A stretch of DNA of 64,000 bases from Bowmanella sp. JS7-9 (GTDB lineage Bacteria > Pseudomonadota > Gammaproteobacteria > Enterobacterales > Alteromonadaceae), in assembly GCF_004329715.1 (NCBI RefSeq), contig NZ_JXSY01000021.1, forward strand, positions 186,001 through 250,000, in the 5' to 3' direction. The position numbers and the translations under genes were made by a program. How positions within the stretch are numbered: position 1 is the stretch's first letter; every line of letters starts with the position of its first letter. Of this stretch, positions 8,367 to 57,667 are shown in pieces. The notes beneath the pieces are model-generated. The model worked only from the letters and a program-made list of their open reading frames with translations. It did not search any database and was not told the origin of the DNA.

Positions 8367-9178
8367 GTGAAAGGTCTATTTACTTGGTTTGGTAAAGCTG
8401 ATATTGATGGTATGAAACAGGATGCTTCCTCTCCGATTTCTAATATCGCGTTAAAGCATCCTGAACTATTCTATCAAATTGTAATTATTTCGAAAATTTG
8501 GGAAGACGAAAGGCGTAAATATATTCCTTGGCTGGAAAAAGTTAGATATAGCCCAGCGACCTTTTAAATTTGTTGAAGGTCACACTGTTAGTATTACCAG
8601 GCCAATTGATTAAGTTTCAATGTCCAAACAATCAGGGAATTTTATCAATGAACTTTCAAATTAAAGCGAAAAGCTCTATATAAATTTAACTTTTGGCTCT
8701 CCTGCTATGTCAGAAGTGAGTATTAAATTAGGTGAAGCTAAATCTAACATGTATTTCTATCAATCAAATCGAAATAGAGAGATTTTTTTGGATGGCATTC
8801 CTTATTAACGGTAGCTTCGTTGATTGAGAAAGACAACGGTGAAGCTTTGTACAACAGGTACATAATTAGTGAGCTAGGTGCTATTTTTTTCGCGGTATTG
8901 GGTTAGACGAGCGCCACTCGAAAATGAATGATGAAGTGGTTATGCTTAACGATGAAATTTTTAGCAAACACTCTGAACAATACTGTGAGCTTAAAGCTTT
9001 TGATATTAAAGAACCTATGACAGTAAATTTAAATAGGTAACTAACTTTACCTTTAAGTAAAGAATGTAATTTTAATAATTGTGTGATTGTTGATAATGTA
9101 ATTGAAAATCAATTGGTTATGGATTGGCTTGAGTGTTGCAACGTTGTAGATGTCTTTAAGCCTGCTGATGAGGGATAA
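8367..9178 (+). pseudogene. decayed gene, CARF (RtcR-like) domain remnant
   Basis: No single frame is open, but consecutive pieces in three frames read as one protein. Piece one (8367-8564) gives LFTWFGKADIDG, PISNIAL and YIPWLEKV, the layout of the N-terminal strand and helix of CARF domains in RtcR-type activators. Piece two (from about 8560) gives SITRPID with a TAA where Tyr is expected (PTDY motif), then INLTFGSPAMSEV, matching the NLTxGTPAM CARF signature. Later pieces (to 9178) are not recognisable. Frame changes occur near 8560 and at two T-runs (about 8783-8789 and 8884-8890), with in-frame stops at 8611, 8662 and 9038. It ends 2 bp before the helicase gene, so it was probably its first operon gene. 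Confidence 0.6.
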
Positions 9179-9180
9179 AT

Positions 9181-11082
9181 ATGAAAAACAAAGCTGAACA
9201 ACACCGCGCTAAAATAGAAACACTGCTTAGTGAACCAAGTGTATTCAAACATCAACGAGATGCTGCACGTAATACCTACTTAGCCCTGCAAGGTGAAACA
9301 CGAGCTGTGATAATGGCTGCTGAGATGCAAGCAGGAAAGTCAGGTGTTGCATTTGCTACTGCATGTTACCAACGTAAAAGCCTCAGTGATGAAGATATCT
9401 GTAACCCGAAATATTTAAAAGACACCCTTTACGTCATGACAATGGCAGACACCTCTTTGTTAGCACAAGCCAAAGAGGATTTGAAACCTGCGGGTAATGT
9501 CGTGGTTTCGAACTTAATCCATTTTCTTGCGGATATTGAAAAAAACTTCAGACGGCAAGATCCTAAATTAATCATCGTGGACGAATGTCATTATGGTTCT
9601 GGCGATACATCTGTTAGGTATGAAGCGCTATTTGATTATCTTCAGAATGAAAATACCGAATGTCGAGTTGTATTTATATCTGCAACGCCGTTAAGTGCTC
9701 TGCTGGCGACTGAAGGGGACTCACTGATAAATCGGGGCATACCCACCAAACTAGTTTTCCACCGAACCAGTGATGATTACTTTGGTGTCAGAGAGATGTT
9801 GGCTGAAGGCCAAGTCATCGACTTGGAAAGCAGAACCCGCAATATTCAGTTTAAATCAGACGCTCAAGACGTTTTTATAAATCATTTTAACAGTTATGAG
9901 GGTGAAGGCTGGGCTTTAGTTAGGGTTCCGGCTGGCACTGCAATGGAAGCTAAACGTTTTTTGGCTGAGCATTGTGTGCCTGAGGATAATATATTTATTT
10001 TAGGTAAGAAATTATCGGGTGTGCCTGAAGAAGAGCATACGTCAATTGATGACTTCAAAGACGAATATAAAACAGCAATGGAGTTTGGGCAAAAAGTTAT
10101 AGCAATTACCGTTGCCGGATGTCGAGCGGGAATAAACTTTGGCCTTGACATGAAGAAGAATATTATTGCTACTTGGGACAGTACGGTATCTAACATTGCT
10201 GCTGTCGTACAAGCCAATATTGGTCGAGCTTGTGGATACCATACCAATAGGAAAGCAATCCACTTTACTAATTTAGATGCGACTCGAGCATATGGTGAAT
10301 TACTCTCATATTTAGAACAAACATGTTCTAAACAAGCAACTGGCAACATTAAAGGCCTTAGAGACAAATACAATGATATTTGTAAAAGTTATGAAGTAAA
10401 AGGGCTAGATGTCGGCGCGAGAGTGTCTAAAAATGGCGAGTTAAGAGGACGTAAAAAGCTAAATGACTCTCAAACATTTTTGACCGATGGTTATTATGCT
10501 ATTCCTGCTAAGTTGCATGATCTAGATTTTGATTTTCGTATTTACACCGATGATGAAACAGTATTACAAGCAATTGATGCGATTAGGCAGGTTTATCTAA
10601 AAGATAACCCCATTGCGCCCAAAAGCTCTCGATCACTGCGCGGTTATAAATGGATTAAAGCGCACTGGGTAAATGGTGATACTTATGATAACCCTGAAAA
10701 GGCATTAGCACTCGGAACAATGTGGGAGCGAGCACTAAACTTAACGGAAAAATTAAATATTGGTGAAGATGTGGAGTTCAATCTAGCGGTAACACCAGGT
10801 GGTAACGAAAAAACATCGGATAAAGAAGTAGCAGTTAAAATCTTCAGTGTATATAACCGCTCTCGAAGAGTAACAGACAAGCGTTGTATGACGGAAGAAG
10901 ATGTTCATGACGTATGTAATTGGTTTGGTGTTGTACCAGATGACACTTTGCTTCTAATCTTCAAAAGGGGGAATTACTGTCCGGTAAGAACGTCAGAAAA
11001 AGAGAGAACAGCCAAAGTTCAAATAGCTAAAGGCAATATTTTGGAAGGTAATCATTTCCAAAAAGTTGAAGAAGAAGCTTAG
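9181..11082 (+). CDS. superfamily 2 DEAD/DEAH-box-type helicase, accessory
   Basis: A 633-residue protein with a full set of SF2 motifs: a Q-like FKHQRDA at 22-28, Walker A as AEMQAGKSG (Lys53), motif II DECH at 134-137, motif III SAT at 167-169, and motif VI QANIGRACG with the arginine finger Arg349. The degenerate AEMQxGK Walker A resembles phage and defence-island helicases rather than housekeeping RecG/UvrB-type ones. Residues 400-633 hold a domain I do not recognise. Codon use is visibly AT-rich compared with gcvP. It is coupled to the next gene (2 bp gap) and preceded by the CARF-like remnant. Likely role, inferred: nucleic-acid translocase of a defence or mobile-element system. Confidence 0.8.
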   Translation: MKNKAEQHRAKIETLLSEPSVFKHQRDAARNTYLALQGETRAVIMAAEMQAGKSGVAFATACYQRKSLSDEDICNPKYLKDTLYVMTMADTSLLAQAKEDLKPAGNVVVSNLIHFLADIEKNFRRQDPKLIIVDECHYGSGDTSVRYEALFDYLQNENTECRVVFISATPLSALLATEGDSLINRGIPTKLVFHRTSDDYFGVREMLAEGQVIDLESRTRNIQFKSDAQDVFINHFNSYEGEGWALVRVPAGTAMEAKRFLAEHCVPEDNIFILGKKLSGVPEEEHTSIDDFKDEYKTAMEFGQKVIAITVAGCRAGINFGLDMKKNIIATWDSTVSNIAAVVQANIGRACGYHTNRKAIHFTNLDATRAYGELLSYLEQTCSKQATGNIKGLRDKYNDICKSYEVKGLDVGARVSKNGELRGRKKLNDSQTFLTDGYYAIPAKLHDLDFDFRIYTDDETVLQAIDAIRQVYLKDNPIAPKSSRSLRGYKWIKAHWVNGDTYDNPEKALALGTMWERALNLTEKLNIGEDVEFNLAVTPGGNEKTSDKEVAVKIFSVYNRSRRVTDKRCMTEEDVHDVCNWFGVVPDDTLLLIFKRGNYCPVRTSEKERTAKVQIAKGNILEGNHFQKVEEEA

Positions 11083-11084
11083 CT

Positions 11085-11888
11085 ATGCATGATGAAACCG
11101 AATTATATCGTCATATGAGTGCGGTTCATGCGAAGGACTTTAACACATGTTTTTACTGTGGCTGCATTGCGACTAAGTATGATTTGGCCCCTCCACTTAA
11201 ATTTGCTGAATTTTATTTAAAAACTAGAGAGGATGCAGACTTTTATCGCGTTCCTAGCTGCCAAGAGTGTTTTGATTTTTTACAAAACGATAAAAGTAGT
11301 TTATTAGGGCAGCGCGTTGATAACGTTAAAGGTAAATTAGCCCAAAAATATCAAAAAGCAATTCGAATTTATGAAATGTGGGAGCATGATGAGTTAGAAC
11401 AGCTTGATTACCAACTTCAAAGAAGCGTGAAAGCAGGCTTAGAACTTGGAAAGGAATCATATGAGAGATACAAGTTTAAAGGCTTTGAATTTGAGGCTGA
11501 TGGTGAAAAGCACTCGGCTCACTATGTAAGTTCTAAAGGGTTTACCATATTTGGTGAACAATATGACAGTTTTCGGGATGCGCTCGATTACGGCAGTAAA
11601 GCATTTCGAATACCAAAAGCTAAACTCAGAGACTTGTATGCTGAGCACGATAATGACTTTGACGCCGCCATTCGCTCTTTCCAAGAGTTGATGGCTCAAA
11701 AGTTATATGAAAAAGAACTTGAGCAGAAGTGCAAAGCTTTTGCTGATGAGCATAAACAAAACATTAAATTTGTTATGCATACGGTAGAGATCTATAGAAA
11801 ACAAAACGACACTCTTACTATAGAAGGAGCTCTTGATAAGCTCTATCAGGAGCGGATTAAAAAAATCAATCAGAGTTACAGTCTGTAG
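11085..11888 (+). CDS. zinc-binding HNH-like protein with NUMOD-like module
   Basis: A 267-residue protein of unknown function. The N-terminus has two CxxC knuckles, Cys22/Cys25 and Cys59/Cys62, bracketing a DLAPP segment (Asp33-Pro37). This is the layout of HNH proteins with CxxC...DHxPP...CxxC, but the catalytic His of DH is Leu here and no clear later N/H is seen, so nuclease activity is uncertain. Residues 150-200 (GEQYDSFRDALDYG, then a Lys-rich helix and DFDAAI) resemble the NUMOD/IENR1 DNA-binding module of homing endonucleases. The C-terminus is a charged helix. It starts 2 bp after the helicase stop, implying translational coupling and joint function. Confidence 0.6.
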   Translation: MHDETELYRHMSAVHAKDFNTCFYCGCIATKYDLAPPLKFAEFYLKTREDADFYRVPSCQECFDFLQNDKSSLLGQRVDNVKGKLAQKYQKAIRIYEMWEHDELEQLDYQLQRSVKAGLELGKESYERYKFKGFEFEADGEKHSAHYVSSKGFTIFGEQYDSFRDALDYGSKAFRIPKAKLRDLYAEHDNDFDAAIRSFQELMAQKLYEKELEQKCKAFADEHKQNIKFVMHTVEIYRKQNDTLTIEGALDKLYQERIKKINQSYSL

Positions 11889-51447: not shown

Positions 51448-52251
51448 TTAACCCTTTTTACTACGTCTTACTGAAGCGATTCCGATTAATCCAAGTGGTA
51501 GCAACCACAGAGCTGTTGGCTCGCTCACCCCTTGAGCATTTGCCGGACGTAATAAAGCCTGACGAGTTTCATATTCGATTTCTAACTCAAACGTCAATGA
51601 ATCAAAGTGTCCAGCGCTAATTTGTCCGGTGTAACCGAATAACCCATCAGCCAACAAATCTGCAAACGAATCCACACTCAGTGTTGTGCTGGCAAAGATG
51701 TCACCAAAGTCATTTCTGTCGTACTGATTGTAGGTACGGTAATTTCTCGAGTAGTAATACACGTTATTGTTGGTGTACTGACGCACAAACACATCGTCAT
51801 TTTGGGTGGTGTCAGTCAACTGCTGGTCACCAAAATCTACTAACAGAATGTCTGCTTCACCATCGCCAATAAATTCGTTGTAGGTGTAATTGGAATAATA
51901 GTAACTGGGACTGTAGTAACAACTGCTGCCACCCCAACGGCTGTAGTAACATCCGCCGCTACTAGGACTGTAATAAGAACTGCCTGAAACATACTGGGTG
52001 TAGGTGCTGGTTTGTAACTCAGAAGAGAAGCCATACACCTTGAATGTGGCATGCACCAGGTCAACGTCAACGCCTAATCCAGACTGTTCTTGTAGAAAAG
52101 GATTGATATCGAAGACACCTTCGATGAGGTTGTTACTGTCCATGTAACTGTCTAATTGGTTTGTAATGCTCACTAATCCGGCTTGAGCACTAGAGGATAA
52201 CCCTGCGGTTGCAAGCAAACCCAACGCGACTTTGGTTTTATTTGATGTCAT
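51448..52251 (-). CDS. PEP-CTERM-like secreted protein with Tyr/Trp/Cys-rich stretch
   Basis: A 267-residue exported protein. I start at MTSNKTKVALGLLATAGL, giving a signal peptide cleaved near SAQA-GL. The C-terminus has the PEP-CTERM layout: Ser-Glu-Pro, a 15-residue hydrophobic helix (LWLLPLGLIGIASV) and a basic RRSKKG tail, i.e. a signal for exosortase-mediated sorting. Residues 84-124 are extraordinarily rich in tyrosine, with two GGCYYSRW / SSCYYSPSYYY blocks. It is transcribed toward the same side as DUF6445, which lies 122 bp upstream. Its Tyr/Trp/Cys cluster resembles that of the second PEP-CTERM protein at 56.9-57.7 kb. Confidence 0.75.
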   Translation of the reverse strand: MTSNKTKVALGLLATAGLSSSAQAGLVSITNQLDSYMDSNNLIEGVFDINPFLQEQSGLGVDVDLVHATFKVYGFSSELQTSTYTQYVSGSSYYSPSSGGCYYSRWGGSSCYYSPSYYYSNYTYNEFIGDGEADILLVDFGDQQLTDTTQNDDVFVRQYTNNNVYYYSRNYRTYNQYDRNDFGDIFASTTLSVDSFADLLADGLFGYTGQISAGHFDSLTFELEIEYETRQALLRPANAQGVSEPTALWLLPLGLIGIASVRRSKKG

Positions 52252-52372
52252 AACTACAACTCCAACTACATGAACAACATGTCTCAATTAGCAAAGTTCA
52301 GGCCAACTTTAAATGTACTGTAAATCAGAGGTTTATCAATTAACCATAATAACAGTGTAAAATATTTTGACA

Positions 52373-53065
52373 TTAACCTATGGCATTAATAATGACTCGC
52401 TGCGTTAATCGCTTCTCGTCAAGTTGGCCGCTAGCAGGATTAACTTTTACATCAATAGAGTGGAATACATTACCCGGCCAAATTACCAGACGGTTGAGTT
52501 TGCCCTCGATGGTATCCACTTTTTCCCATTGGGTATTCGTGTCTGTCACATAACCCAATGGAGTGTCTAGTTTCCGTTGAGCACTCAGGTTTTGATAATG
52601 CGCTTTTTGTGCCTCGGTCACTACCGTCATAGAGTTTGTCTCGCGGTTGCGAAAAAAAACGGTTCCGCCTAAATCCTGTTCGTTGAGGTAAATCACCCCC
52701 AACATCGGTGTGCCATCGATATGTGGCTGCCCTTGATTGTCTAACAACTTCTCTTCCGGTGTAGTCAGGATTGAAAAGTCGGTTGAAATGGCTTCTGTTT
52801 TGATTTGCTTTCCGGTCGCTCGGGTCAATACCGTAGCGATAAAATGGCAAAACGCCTTGATGCTTGGGTCTTCCTGACTAAGTGGTTGATGCCGACCAGG
52901 GTAGTAAGCAACTGAAGATGGAAACGAGTTTGAAAACGCCAGATGCCTCACTTCAAGAGGTGTGGCAAAAATGTCATCAATGACAAATAACGGAACTTCT
53001 TTATTTCCGAGCCAAATAATATATGGTTTGGAGTGTGGGTTGATCAGTAACTTATTCAAGGTCAT
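52373..53065 (-). CDS. DUF6445 family putative Fe(II)/2-oxoglutarate-type oxygenase
   Basis: A 230-residue protein. PSSVAYYPGRHQPL and the core GQPHIDGTPMLGVIYLN, GGTVFFRNRETNSM match DUF6445. A candidate iron facial triad is visible: His115 and Asp117 in PHIDG, then His202 in WPGNVFHSID, with an Arg (Arg223) after it, the HxD...H...R spacing of 2OG/Fe(II) dioxygenases. Activity is inferred. It is divergent from the halogenase with only 38 bp between start codons, so both probably share a promoter region. Confidence 0.75.
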   Translation of the reverse strand: MTLNKLLINPHSKPYIIWLGNKEVPLFVIDDIFATPLEVRHLAFSNSFPSSVAYYPGRHQPLSQEDPSIKAFCHFIATVLTRATGKQIKTEAISTDFSILTTPEEKLLDNQGQPHIDGTPMLGVIYLNEQDLGGTVFFRNRETNSMTVVTEAQKAHYQNLSAQRKLDTPLGYVTDTNTQWEKVDTIEGKLNRLVIWPGNVFHSIDVKVNPASGQLDEKRLTQRVIINAIG

Positions 53066-53103
53066 TCCCGCGCTTAGCTGATGGCATCTGAAGGTGAGTC
53101 TAT

Positions 53104-54621
53104 ATGAAAAAAAGCCGCGTTGTTATAGTCGGAGGTGGTTCCGCTGGCTGGATGACTGCGTGTTATCTGAATCATGTATTCGGTAACAACAGTCAGTTTG
53201 AAGTCACGTTAATTGAGTCAGCAGATGTACCGACGATTGGGGTTGGCGAGGCAACGGTACACACCTTGCGCGGTTTCTTGGAAGCCTGCGATTTGTCAGA
53301 AGGTGAATTTATGGTGGCAACTGATGCCACGCTAAAACACGGAATTCTATTTAAACACTGGCAGATTGGAGATGATCCCAAGGATCAGTATTTTCACCCC
53401 TTTGAAGACATCGCGCCAATAGCGCCTGAAGGGGTAATTAACCATTGGTTGAATCTGAAATTTAAATCTGCCACACCTCCACGGTTTGATCGCTTTATGG
53501 GGGTGCAGGGGATTCTCGCTGCAGCGGAAAAATCACCCAAGTTAATGCACGATAGCCAATATCGCGCACCGGTTCCTTATGGATATCATTTAGATGCGAT
53601 TAAGTTTGCTCATTTCCTGCGTGATGTATCCGTAAAACGTGGGGTAAAGCATATTTGTGACCACGTGACCGACGTTAATCATCAAGACGGGATCATAGGT
53701 TCGGTGCGATTAGCATCTGGCCAGCAAGTGGAAGGGGATTTGTTCATTGATTGCAGCGGATTCCGTTCCATTCTGGCATCTGCGCTAGGTGCTACGTTTA
53801 TTTCTTACAGCGACAAATTGTTCTGCGACAAGGCTGTTACTGCACGAGTACCACAAAGCGACAAGTTCGTACCCAAACCCTATACCACCGCAACTGCGAG
53901 GCGTTCTGGCTGGACGTTTGACATCGATTTGCAAAGTCGTAAAGGACTTGGTTACGTCTATTCCAGTCAACATTTATCAGAAATGGAAGCCGAAGCTGAA
54001 TTTCGTCAGGTATTCGGGTTAGGTGACGAACAAGGAGTGAACCATTTCACTACTCGTGTCGGTCGTCAGGATCGGGCTTGGGTCGGAAATTGTGTCTCAA
54101 TCGGTTTAGCTCAGGGTTTCATCGAACCACTTGAGTCCACAGGCTTGTATTTTATTGAAATGAGTTTGCGATTCCTGACCGATTATCTGGTGCTTGAAGA
54201 TAGCGATGCCGCGAGGGACAAATATAACGCAGTACTGAACAACCTATTCGATCAGACGGTTGACTTTATAGTGTTGCATTACGTTTTGACCAAGCGCCAT
54301 GACACGCCATTTTGGCAGGATATACAAACTAATATGGCTCGTTCAGGTGATCTCAATGAGCTATTGCAGTTGTGGAAGCACAAAGCGCCTACTGATTCCG
54401 ATTTCCTAAATGCTGGCCTGATATTTCGTGCCACAAATTATGCGGCGATATTGTATGGCATGGAGTCTCTTCCTCAAGATTTGCCAACGATTGTCCGACA
54501 TATGGGGATTGAACAAAGTCACGAAGTCCTGAGTAAAATCCAGTCAGTTCAAAAAATGGCGATTACTTCCTCTCCTTCGCATCAAGAGTTCTTACAAAAG
54601 TTTTTGGGGGCATTCAGCTAG
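53104..54621 (+). CDS. tryptophan 7-halogenase family FAD-dependent protein
   Basis: A 505-residue flavoprotein of the tryptophan-halogenase family. FAD motif GGGSAG at 10-15, VGEATVHTL block, and Lys78 in TLKHG, which lines up with the catalytic Lys79 of PrnA; the EPLESTG block supplies Glu341, matching Glu346 of PrnA. The substrate-tunnel motif WxWxIP is altered: at residues 270-275 it reads WTFDID, so the Trp and Pro positions are changed. The family is therefore firm, but halogenating activity is not. Many marine members act on unknown substrates and sit beside TonB receptors; none is here. Instead PEP-CTERM genes surround it. Confidence 0.85.
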   Translation: MKKSRVVIVGGGSAGWMTACYLNHVFGNNSQFEVTLIESADVPTIGVGEATVHTLRGFLEACDLSEGEFMVATDATLKHGILFKHWQIGDDPKDQYFHPFEDIAPIAPEGVINHWLNLKFKSATPPRFDRFMGVQGILAAAEKSPKLMHDSQYRAPVPYGYHLDAIKFAHFLRDVSVKRGVKHICDHVTDVNHQDGIIGSVRLASGQQVEGDLFIDCSGFRSILASALGATFISYSDKLFCDKAVTARVPQSDKFVPKPYTTATARRSGWTFDIDLQSRKGLGYVYSSQHLSEMEAEAEFRQVFGLGDEQGVNHFTTRVGRQDRAWVGNCVSIGLAQGFIEPLESTGLYFIEMSLRFLTDYLVLEDSDAARDKYNAVLNNLFDQTVDFIVLHYVLTKRHDTPFWQDIQTNMARSGDLNELLQLWKHKAPTDSDFLNAGLIFRATNYAAILYGMESLPQDLPTIVRHMGIEQSHEVLSKIQSVQKMAITSSPSHQEFLQKFLGAFS

Positions 54622-54826
54622 AAAGTTTGACAGGGCAAAATAGCGTTAGCGTGGCATGCAATGTAATAGGCGATTTTTGATTGGTGCAAAAGGCGCACTT
54701 TGATTTTCGAATGTCCTTGCATTTAAAGCACTACTATTATGATTATCAACAAGTTACAGATGGATAGCGCAGGCAGATAAATTATTTCGCTCCGCGTGTT
54801 TAATCAGTCAGATTGGAAAGAGACTC

Positions 54827-56977
54827 ATGTTAAAGCGCTTTTTGTCTGAGTTACGCCGCCGCCGGGTATTTCAAACTTTATTACCCTACTTGGGAGTTGT
54901 CTGGTTGCTGTTGCAAGTTGCCAGTGTGTTGCAACCCATGTTGCATTTCTCCCAGACTGCATCAGCCATCTTTGGCTTGATTCTGTTGTTTTCCATCCCG
55001 CTGGTTGCCTATTTATCCTGGTATTATGATTTTGGTTTGGATGGCATTCGTCAGGTTGAGGAATCAGACGGCACAATTCGGCCACTGAGATTACGGCATT
55101 GGTTGTGGTTGATGATGATTATTGGCCTGTCTGGTGTTGTTGGGTTCCAGTATTACCAGTCACTCCAGTCGTCGATCAACAAACAGGCTGAGGGTTTATC
55201 CAAACAGCTTACAGCCAGAAGTATTGCGGTACTGTCATTCCGGGATGTGAGTCAAAATCAGGAGCAACTCTATCTGGCACAAGGAATGAGTGAAACGCTT
55301 AGCCAGATGCTCGGACAGGAACCTGCGCTTAAAGTATTGTCCAGCTCCTCTGTGTTTGCTCTACAGCAACAAAGTCTGCTCCCTGTTGATATCGCCCATC
55401 GTTTGCAGGCGGATATACTACTCAATGGCAATGTTCGCTTGACGGGGTCTAAGCTGAGGGTCTATGCCGAGTTATTAGATCCAATCAGTAGCAAAGTGTT
55501 GTGGAGCGACACATTTGATCGGCAATTAAATGATGTGTTTCAGGTGCAGGAAGACATCGCACGAAGTGTATTAAATCTGCTGCAAGATCAGTATCTGGCG
55601 CCAGGGAGTTTACAGGCATCCCAAAAAACCGCTGCTTCCGATGCGTATTTGCTCTATTTACAGGGCCGGGCAGCATATCGTAAACAAACCGCCGCAGATA
55701 TGCAGGTTGCACGTGACTTATTCCGGCAGGCCATTGCAATGGATCCTGAGTACGCATTAGCCTACGCGGCAGAAGCTGACAGTGTGGTGATGTTGGCGGA
55801 CACACCTAATACATTTGGCGTGCTACAGCCTGACGTGGCCTTACGGCTTGCAAATGAAAAATTGGATGCAGCTCTGCTACGTGCACCAGAATTAGCCGAA
55901 GCGCACGCCGTGCGCGGGCATACCATGTGGTTGTTGTCTAATGACCCACTGGCTGCCATTGATGCTCTTAACAAGGCCATTGAATTAAATCCGAGTCTCG
56001 CCAATGCCTATATGTGGCGATTTCAGGCCCAAAACCAACTTGGCCACTATGCAGATGCACTAGTGTCATTGCAACAGGCCCATGAGTTGGATCCTGTTTC
56101 TATTGCAACCAGCTACAACCTGGGATGGGAGTTGATGGTGCGTGGCCAACTAGATGAGGCTACCAGGCAATTTGAACAGCTAAGTAAAGATTTTCCAGAC
56201 TCTCCGATGGGTATTGAAGGGCTAGCCAATGTGGCGTTAATGCGCGGAGATTTGGCGCAAAGCGCCGTTTACCGTCAGCGAATCTGGCAGCAGTCTCCGC
56301 AAAATCCGCAGTTTAGGGATAATTACCTGATTATCTTGTATTCGTTGGGTCTGACAGAGCTTGCTCAGCAAGTTAGTGATGAGCCGTCCTGGCAGTCTTC
56401 AAACCTCCTGATAGAAGGCAAATACCGCGACTTTATTGCTGAGCAAGAATTTAATTTGGCGGCTAATCCAGGCGAGCCATGGGTACAGTTTGAGGCTGCC
56501 TGGTATCATAGTTTAGTGGGGGAGCGTGCTCGTGCGGTTCAGTTATTAACTGAACTTAATGGGCAATTCACTGATGCCGAACAATACGCGATGCCGATGT
56601 GCAGCCCGGCACTGGAAATCGCCTGGGCGTTTCAGCAGAGGCAAGATAATAAGGCTGCGCAAATCATTAGCCAATGTAAGCAACAAGTAAAGGAAGCCAA
56701 AACCAGTGGTAAGGTGGATAGCTTTGTTGATTATACTGCCGCACGAATCGCCGCGTTGCAGGGCGATAAGCCAACCATGATTACAGAACTTAACAGCGCG
56801 CTGAAGCATGGCTGGCGGGAATGGTGGACAAAAATGGATCCGTTGCTGGCACCTTATCTGAGTGATCCGGAAATTACCGATATGATGGCCTTTTTAGACA
56901 GGGAATTAGCGCACCAGAAGCAACTGGCGATTACGCTGTTGACGCCGGAACACCCAGCCACTCAGGGCAAAGAGTAA
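54827..56977 (+). CDS. membrane-anchored TolB-like/TPR regulatory protein
   Basis: A 716-residue protein. The N-terminus reads LSELRRRRVFQTLLPYLGVVWLLLQVASVL, then two more hydrophobic helices (residues about 15-115), the anchor of a large class of marine TPR proteins. Residues about 125-265 form a TolB-like domain (IAVLSFRDVSQNQ, LAQGMSETLSQML, LNGNVRLTG, VLWSDTFDR). The rest is TPR repeats (for example AIELNPSLANAYMWRFQAQNQLG). No DNA-binding domain. The relation to the halogenase is positional only (205 bp gap). Its 3' end overlaps an opposing gene by 72 bp. Confidence 0.8.
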   Translation: MLKRFLSELRRRRVFQTLLPYLGVVWLLLQVASVLQPMLHFSQTASAIFGLILLFSIPLVAYLSWYYDFGLDGIRQVEESDGTIRPLRLRHWLWLMMIIGLSGVVGFQYYQSLQSSINKQAEGLSKQLTARSIAVLSFRDVSQNQEQLYLAQGMSETLSQMLGQEPALKVLSSSSVFALQQQSLLPVDIAHRLQADILLNGNVRLTGSKLRVYAELLDPISSKVLWSDTFDRQLNDVFQVQEDIARSVLNLLQDQYLAPGSLQASQKTAASDAYLLYLQGRAAYRKQTAADMQVARDLFRQAIAMDPEYALAYAAEADSVVMLADTPNTFGVLQPDVALRLANEKLDAALLRAPELAEAHAVRGHTMWLLSNDPLAAIDALNKAIELNPSLANAYMWRFQAQNQLGHYADALVSLQQAHELDPVSIATSYNLGWELMVRGQLDEATRQFEQLSKDFPDSPMGIEGLANVALMRGDLAQSAVYRQRIWQQSPQNPQFRDNYLIILYSLGLTELAQQVSDEPSWQSSNLLIEGKYRDFIAEQEFNLAANPGEPWVQFEAAWYHSLVGERARAVQLLTELNGQFTDAEQYAMPMCSPALEIAWAFQQRQDNKAAQIISQCKQQVKEAKTSGKVDSFVDYTAARIAALQGDKPTMITELNSALKHGWREWWTKMDPLLAPYLSDPEITDMMAFLDRELAHQKQLAITLLTPEHPATQGKE

Positions 56978-57667
56978 AACGACCGGTGCTTCATTAACCG
57001 GTAAAATTAACACTGACTCACTGTAGCCACTGAACCCAATTGACTGGCTCGCACTGCCTCGATAACCGCATAATCCTTCAGCGTAGAGTTCGTCATTACA
57101 TTCGATCTCGTCGCGAGTATAAACGTGGAAAAAACTGCGATTATCACCCGCACTGTAACTGGTGTTGAGGGATATGGAATATTGCCCGGGCCTCAGATCT
57201 GCGGGCATTGGCACATCAAGTGTGGCAATCCCATCAATGATCTCGCTTGCAAAAATCCAGTATTGCGACCCCTGGCTGAGTCGCCAGGTTGCGCTGCTAA
57301 GCGCCTGATTAAAGTGTATTTGAGAAAAGCCTTCGAACTGGAGGCGTTGGCCTAAAGTGAATTGGTAATAACAGGGGGTGTAGTATTGCGCCCATTCCGC
57401 GTCATCGTCCCAATCCTGAGAGTAAAAATAGCAACCTTCCGGCGCCGGATTGGCATCAGTCAGACCTGTCGTATAACTTTCATATTCTATTGCCGAGGCA
57501 AAATCGCTGACCAGCCCCGCAGAATTTATCAGCGTGTCATCAAGTAAATAAAGAGCCTGTGGACTGGTACTGGTTGTTGATCCGCGGCCGGAACCGCGGA
57601 TAAGTTCCGCGTTACAGATATTGGTAAACAGTAGGCTAACAATGGCTAATATATGCTGGAATTTCAT
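56906..57667 (-). CDS. second PEP-CTERM-like secreted protein
   Basis: A 253-residue exported protein. I start at MKFQHILAIV, which gives a signal peptide cleaved near CNA-EL. The C-terminus VNEAPVVLLFALSGWVFRRQQ has the NEAP-type anchor followed by a basic tail, a variant PEP-CTERM. Residues 79-102 hold GCYFYSQDW...EWAQYYTPCYYQF, echoing the Cys-Tyr-Tyr/Trp block of the other PEP-CTERM protein. The tail coding region overlaps the opposing TPR gene by 72 bp. Function unknown. Confidence 0.7.
   Translation of the reverse strand: MKFQHILAIVSLLFTNICNAELIRGSGRGSTTSTSPQALYLLDDTLINSAGLVSDFASAIEYESYTTGLTDANPAPEGCYFYSQDWDDDAEWAQYYTPCYYQFTLGQRLQFEGFSQIHFNQALSSATWRLSQGSQYWIFASEIIDGIATLDVPMPADLRPGQYSISLNTSYSAGDNRSFFHVYTRDEIECNDELYAEGLCGYRGSASQSIGFSGYSESVLILPVNEAPVVLLFALSGWVFRRQQRNRQLLLVR

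Follow-up and report, generated by a model that had tools for sequence, protein, structure and literature searches.

In the window analysed here, a 64,000-nucleotide stretch of the Bowmanella sp. JS7-9 genome (contig NZ_JXSY01000021.1, positions 186,001 to 250,000), a gene for a tyrosine-rich PEP-CTERM protein (P0001) adjoins the genes for a DUF6445 protein (P0002) and a tryptophan-halogenase-family flavoprotein (P0003). Judged from sequence, the chances are about even that the three constitute a protein-tailoring module, in which the DUF6445 enzyme and the halogenase would act on the adjoining PEP-CTERM preprotein at an aromatic loop before its export. The genes are:

51448-52251, minus strand: P0001, Tyr-rich PEP-CTERM protein, 267 aa, matching TIGR02595 above its cut-off, with a homologue in locus L152; candidate substrate
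52373-53065, minus strand: P0002, DUF6445, putative 2-oxoglutarate (2OG)/Fe(II) oxygenase (PF20043, E 2.4e-36; H115-x-D117, H202, R219)
53104-54621, plus strand: P0003, Trp_halogenase-family flavoprotein (PF04820, E 2.9e-126; K78, E344; tunnel motif W270-T-F272-D-I-D)

P0002 and P0003 are divergent, their starts separated by 38 bp, and P0001 lies downstream of P0002 on the same strand after a gap of 121 bp. A scan of the locus for promoters and terminators yielded nothing exceeding shuffled sequence. No short leader/core precursor of the type found with ribosomally synthesized and post-translationally modified peptides (RiPPs) was noticed near the pair among open reading frames (ORFs) of at least 90 aa, smaller ORFs lying outside the survey; in contrast to such a precursor, the neighbour of the pair is a 267-aa secreted protein.

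This trio appears to be more than a chance neighbourhood, since it recurs with homologous partners in L152, a locus from a metagenome-assembled genome (MAG) of the alphaproteobacterial order Rhodospirillales. The L152 halogenase was second best among the matches listed in a second scan of GTDB genomes; the first contig scan, with P0003 alone as query, found nothing. Here the genes for a PEP-CTERM protein (306 aa), a DUF6445 protein, a halogenase and a SecB follow one another on one strand, with intergenic gaps of 93, 0 and 1 bp in that order, amid what are apparently chromosomal core genes. Gene order and strands differ from those of the window, so simple shared synteny does not account for the linkage. 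P0002 and its L152 counterpart form one clade (support 100/99) and are 38% identical (E 6e-48; score 362, the next relative reaching 218), and the two halogenases are 42% identical. Alignment of P0001 with the L152 PEP-CTERM protein gave a z-score of 13.1 over the full length (best control 6.1) and of 4.2 once Tyr, Trp and Cys had been masked and the signal regions cut (best control 1.9), the controls being other proteins of the source genome. Away from the Tyr-rich part, BLAST aligned 72 residues of the two at 26%. On these alignments the two PEP-CTERM proteins are homologous.

The SecB of the L152 operon matches PF02556 at about 99 bits (99.1-99.5) and falls under all SecB equivalog cut-offs (TIGR00809: 86.4 against 102.8 bits), while another SecB elsewhere in that genome scores better, at 161.7 bits; by these scores the operon gene is a diverged second copy. 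No further trio was found in the plasmids and viral contigs searched, and the truncated end of contig G165 beyond its halogenase held no DUF6445 or PEP-CTERM fragment. In 344 other genomes of the order no copy of the P0002-type DUF6445 subfamily was recognised, and the module is therefore rare or often transferred. Weak DUF6445 matches within the order were considered as extra copies of the module and rejected: they lie in other contexts, with no halogenase found adjoining.

Three parts of P0001 bear on its proposed role:

51454-51528, minus strand: PEP-CTERM sorting signal of P0001, SEPTALWLLPLGLIGIASVRRSKK region; TIGR02595 match
51703-52020, minus strand: Tyr-rich insert of P0001, residues 78-183, from the AlphaFold model
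51913-51951, minus strand: motif CYYSRWGGSSCYY, residues 101-113 of P0001, common to L152; proposed target site

A preliminary description of this DNA had called P0001 a secreted PEP-CTERM protein carrying an aromatic cluster, and this was borne out: its TIGR02595 score is 16.9 bits from the protein scan and 21.4 from the genome scan, against a cut-off of 16, its sorting signal has SEP in place of PEP, and the cluster GCYYSRWGGSSCYYSP begins at residue 100. In an AlphaFold model built on an alignment of two rows only (mean pLDDT, the predicted local distance difference test, 52), an insert of about 105 residues sits between parts of a beta-rich core, contains the Cys/Trp motif and is mostly disordered or not predicted (pLDDT <50). 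The exported regions of P0001 and of the L152 protein, defined as the protein minus signal peptide and C-terminal membrane segment, each contain exactly two Cys and one Trp, all of which fall inside the pattern C-x(1,4)-W-G-x(2,3)-C-Y-Y (CYYSRWGGSSCYY in P0001, CGWGNTCYY in L152). Shuffling each protein 200,000 times never produced this pattern; the count serves as an aid and not as a probability because the motif was written after viewing both sequences. It had no other match in the window or in the 2,998 ORFs of the fetched loci. A match of P0001 in genome G345 was rejected; this protein resembles those of the outer membrane and contains a stretch rich in C, W and Y, without a PEP-CTERM signal.

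The source genome contains about ten PEP-CTERM proteins above the model cut-off, P0001 included, and one full exosortase match (PF09721, E 1.3e-69), on contig C17. A second, weak exosortase-family match (C44:32523-33263, locus L009) scores 25.6 bits against a cut-off of 25.7, or 27.1 bits with its neighbours in frame, and lies in a region with polysaccharide-synthesis-like genes.

The assignment of P0002 as a putative Fe(II) oxygenase was upheld. H115-x-D117, H202 and R219 are invariant across 10 DUF6445 sequences, leaving the HxD...H facial triad and the 2OG-binding Arg intact, and the predicted model (pLDDT 87.9) adopts a 2OG-oxygenase fold, with PolD (E 2e-5) and PHD2 (E 3e-5) among its fold-search matches. 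Its best structural neighbour is OGFOD1 (Z 14.9, 176 residues, root-mean-square deviation 2.7), and lysyl hydroxylases (Z about 13.4), prolyl 4-hydroxylases and the Pseudomonas putida EF-Tu prolyl hydroxylase are among the others. As modelled, therefore, DUF6445 has a hydroxylase-type fold closest to that of protein hydroxylases. A literature search found no paper naming DUF6445 or joining a halogenase with PEP-CTERM.

P0003 matches PF04820 with 422 bits against a cut-off of 21, its closest relative in the PDB being a Trp 5-halogenase, with PrnA and RebH also related. It keeps the flavin motif GGGSAGW (GxGxxG), ATLK78 and PLE344ST; the catalytic roles of the halogenase Lys and Glu are those established for PrnA. 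By family and catalytic residues, P0003 is a predicted flavin-dependent halogenase. The altered tunnel motif reported earlier is likewise real: P0003 lacks the W.W.IP signature and reads W270-T-F272-D-I-D instead. Phe at the second tunnel Trp occurs in P0003 alone among 76 relatives compared, and ID in place of IP is common to nearly all of its clade.

On the other side of the halogenase lie two more genes:

54827-56977, plus strand: P0004, tetratricopeptide repeat (TPR) protein with hydrophobic stretches at its N-terminus
56906-57667, minus strand: P0005, second secreted protein (right-hand)

The preliminary description had placed the enzyme pair between two PEP-CTERM proteins with similar Cys-Tyr/Trp clusters and proposed that both are tailored. 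P0001 does adjoin the pair; on the right, the TPR gene intervenes before P0005, and it is with this gene that P0005 belongs. Homologues of P0005 occur in 20 other genomes among the 295 of the same GTDB family searched, a TPR-protein homologue lies tail to tail with the P0005 homologue in 19 of 19 fetched loci, and no halogenase or DUF6445 gene was found in the 14-16 kb around the homologues in these 19. The family is marked by conserved Cys, an RGxGRG start, the PCYYQF motif and a PEP-CTERM-like tail, PCY[YW] being kept with the conserved Cys residues in 16 of the 19 loci. Since the pair recurs without a halogenase and the motif is mostly kept, the P0005 cluster is a trait of its family that goes with the TPR partner and not with the halogenase; by these comparisons the TPR gene and P0005 are a separate conserved convergent pair, and P0005 was rejected as a second substrate. 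P0005 itself matched no PEP-CTERM model, contrary to its earlier designation, though several homologues have PEP-CTERM-like tails. Its cluster residues are as described (C79, C99). When aligned with the P0001 cluster it gives a z-score of 7 against composition-only shuffles, a likeness that consists of short CY pieces in Tyr-rich stretches; the second Cys of the two clusters do not align. The tailoring proposal thus keeps the support of the L152 operon for P0001 and has none for P0005.

At 9181-11888, a gene for a helicase-like protein (ResIII, weak DEAD) is followed by one for a protein of 267 aa that begins with CxxC and, by eye, appears HNH-like; they had no PADLOC match.

The wider halogenase and DUF6445 families are found mostly in TonB-receptor loci. 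In the four canonical DUF6445 loci that were read throughout, the order is TonB receptor, halogenase, SapC, cupin, halogenase and, last, DUF6445, with glycosidase-like genes recognised by eye in two or more. The other five full-length halogenases of the source genome all lie in TonB-receptor loci, with SapC in 2 of 3 loci, and a run of TonB receptor, DUF6445 and halogenase is present on a plasmid. A single profile detected a TonB receptor in 60 of 104 halogenase loci; one missed locus that was tested, L162, has a TonB receptor recognised by Pfam. The preliminary description had stated that halogenase homologues never neighbouring Tyr-rich PEP-CTERM genes would speak against its proposal. This is largely the picture for the wider families, and it is not the picture for the P0002 subfamily of DUF6445, in which at least two members are known and both adjoin a Tyr-rich PEP-CTERM gene.

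Other arrangements were seen as well. Two alphaproteobacterial halogenase/DUF6445 pairs, L157 and L170, had no TonB receptor that could be found. In L157 (1738-8943 with 8974-11228) the neighbour of the pair is a protein of 2401 aa that contains PATR autotransporter repeats; the neighbours in L170 look autotransporter-like by eye, with no Pfam match in the part scanned. A second class of halogenase locus (L162, L164, L165, L166, L177, L193, L202 and similar) comprises a TonB receptor some 990 aa long, a protein of 262 aa and a halogenase. By eye the 262-aa protein has a sulfotransferase-like start, PKCGTH; Pfam gave nothing at E 0.001 for the single example tested. Taken with the other loci, this class hints that halogenases in general adjoin genes of exported proteins.

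These data lead us to propose a model in which the cytoplasmic DUF6445 oxygenase and the halogenase would meet the newly made, unfolded PEP-CTERM preprotein and act on the Tyr-rich loop around its single exported Trp, CYYSRWGGSSCYY, after which the modified protein would be exported via Sec and sorted by the exosortase. Hydroxylation might precede halogenation, or the two might be independent. SecB keeps preproteins unfolded ahead of Sec export, and in L152 a dedicated SecB-like chaperone would hold the preprotein in that state. A second SecB fits the model because the enzymes must reach the chain in the cytoplasm, its role in L152 being deduced from the operon. The PEP-CTERM protein as substrate, Trp and/or Tyr as target and the order of the steps are all inferred. 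Taken further, the trio could represent a so far undescribed system for tailoring surface proteins that exosortase sorts, in which the halogenase and the protein-hydroxylase-like oxygenase, joined in one lineage by a dedicated SecB, would mark a unique Trp and/or the Tyr cluster of a cytoplasmic preprotein; we hold this broader claim tentatively, at somewhat less than an even chance. The same tentativeness applies to its products, which might be halogenated or hydroxylated, perhaps cross-linkable, aromatics at the cell surface or within the matrix. Similar logic may govern the TonB-receptor loci, in which a gene for an exported protein likewise has halogenases and oxygenases as neighbours.

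Several observations weigh against the tailoring model. At least two trio loci are known, a small number, and one is a MAG; the motif was defined after the fact; no SecB lies beside the window trio; and the small-molecule 2OG oxygenases PolD and PasI also rank high in the P0002 fold search. The halogenase tree does not unite P0003 with the L152 halogenase, and the closest relative of P0003 in it adjoins a TonB-dependent receptor (L151/L079, support 94). That last point, together with the prevalence of TonB-receptor loci, the canonical operons in relatives and the plasmid-borne run, would suit a different origin, whereby the halogenase and DUF6445 genes are relicts of a sugar-utilisation cassette from TonB-receptor operons, the PEP-CTERM gene being a bystander. 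Their original targets, whether a transported ligand, a diffusible phenolic or the receptor, would in that case have been kept. We consider both this history and these targets unlikely: no TonB receptor, SapC or cupin was seen among the ORFs adjoining the window pair, P0002 belongs to a separate DUF6445 subfamily whose other member also adjoins a homologous PEP-CTERM gene, and the partners share the motif in addition to their homology. Pure coincidence, with two enzyme genes and a PEP-CTERM gene falling side by side in two genomes, is highly improbable. With about ten PEP-CTERM genes in the source genome and some 100 halogenase loci inspected, one such encounter would be unsurprising alone, but coincidence leaves unexplained the homology of the PEP-CTERM partners, the sister DUF6445 copies and the tight L152 operon with its second SecB.

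Another reading concerns the chemistry. LodB, GoxB and QhpG are flavoprotein maturases for cysteine tryptophylquinone that modify aromatic residues of a partner protein, and all three figure among the top NCBIfam hits for P0003, with E about 1e-7 to 3e-6. Instead of halogenating, P0003 might likewise oxidise the Trp (or Tyr) so that it cross-links to a nearby Cys, giving the PEP-CTERM protein a redox cofactor or cross-link; the Cys near the Trp in the motif and the replacement of the second tunnel Trp by Phe would suit this. P0003 reaches only 31 bits against the LodB/GoxB maturase equivalog cut-off of 400, whereas it matches Trp_halogenase vastly more strongly and keeps the Lys and Glu of halogenases; moreover, the two Cys may do no more than form a disulfide. 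That these maturases are distant relatives is what makes such oxidation of Trp and cross-linking to Cys a rival, though a minor and distinctly improbable one.

Halogenases of this family commonly accompany genes for exported proteins in Proteobacteria, and the literature search gave no natural substrate for them there. If the tailoring model is correct, the trio offers a clear protein substrate candidate for such halogenases, enzymatic halogenation reaches beyond small peptides to exported surface proteins, and DUF6445 gains a role, that of a protein hydroxylase, which can be tested. The prediction is a sharp one: a single Trp, W106, in a single protein, P0001.

Among known systems, the TonB-receptor-linked loci share with the trio the same halogenase and DUF6445 families and an adjoining gene for an exported protein; they differ in that the trio is without receptor, SapC and cupin, has a separate DUF6445 subfamily and neighbours a Tyr-rich PEP-CTERM gene. 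P0003 is in a flavoprotein superfamily related to LodB, GoxB and QhpG, yet lies far under their cut-offs and retains the halogenase residues. The DUF6445 model shares its fold (Z 14.9 to about 12) and the HxD/H/R residues with OGFOD1/Tpa1, lysyl and prolyl 4-hydroxylases, but is only 12-17% identical to them. In vancomycin synthesis, VhaA chlorinates a peptide Tyr only following C-beta hydroxylation (PMC12615548), a likeness to a halogenase with an oxygenase partner, although its substrate is a carrier-bound nonribosomal hexapeptide and its hydroxylase is of another type. Flavin-dependent halogenases that act on peptides are known in SrpI and MibH (PMC12615548, PMC10858898), and SrpI, MibH, MppI and ChlH resemble the proposed system in halogenating an aromatic side chain of an adjacently encoded ribosomal chain (PMC10858898, PMC12615548). 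Theirs is a short leader-core precursor, whereas the proposed substrate here is a full-length exported PEP-CTERM protein, with an oxygenase partner added and, in one locus, SecB.

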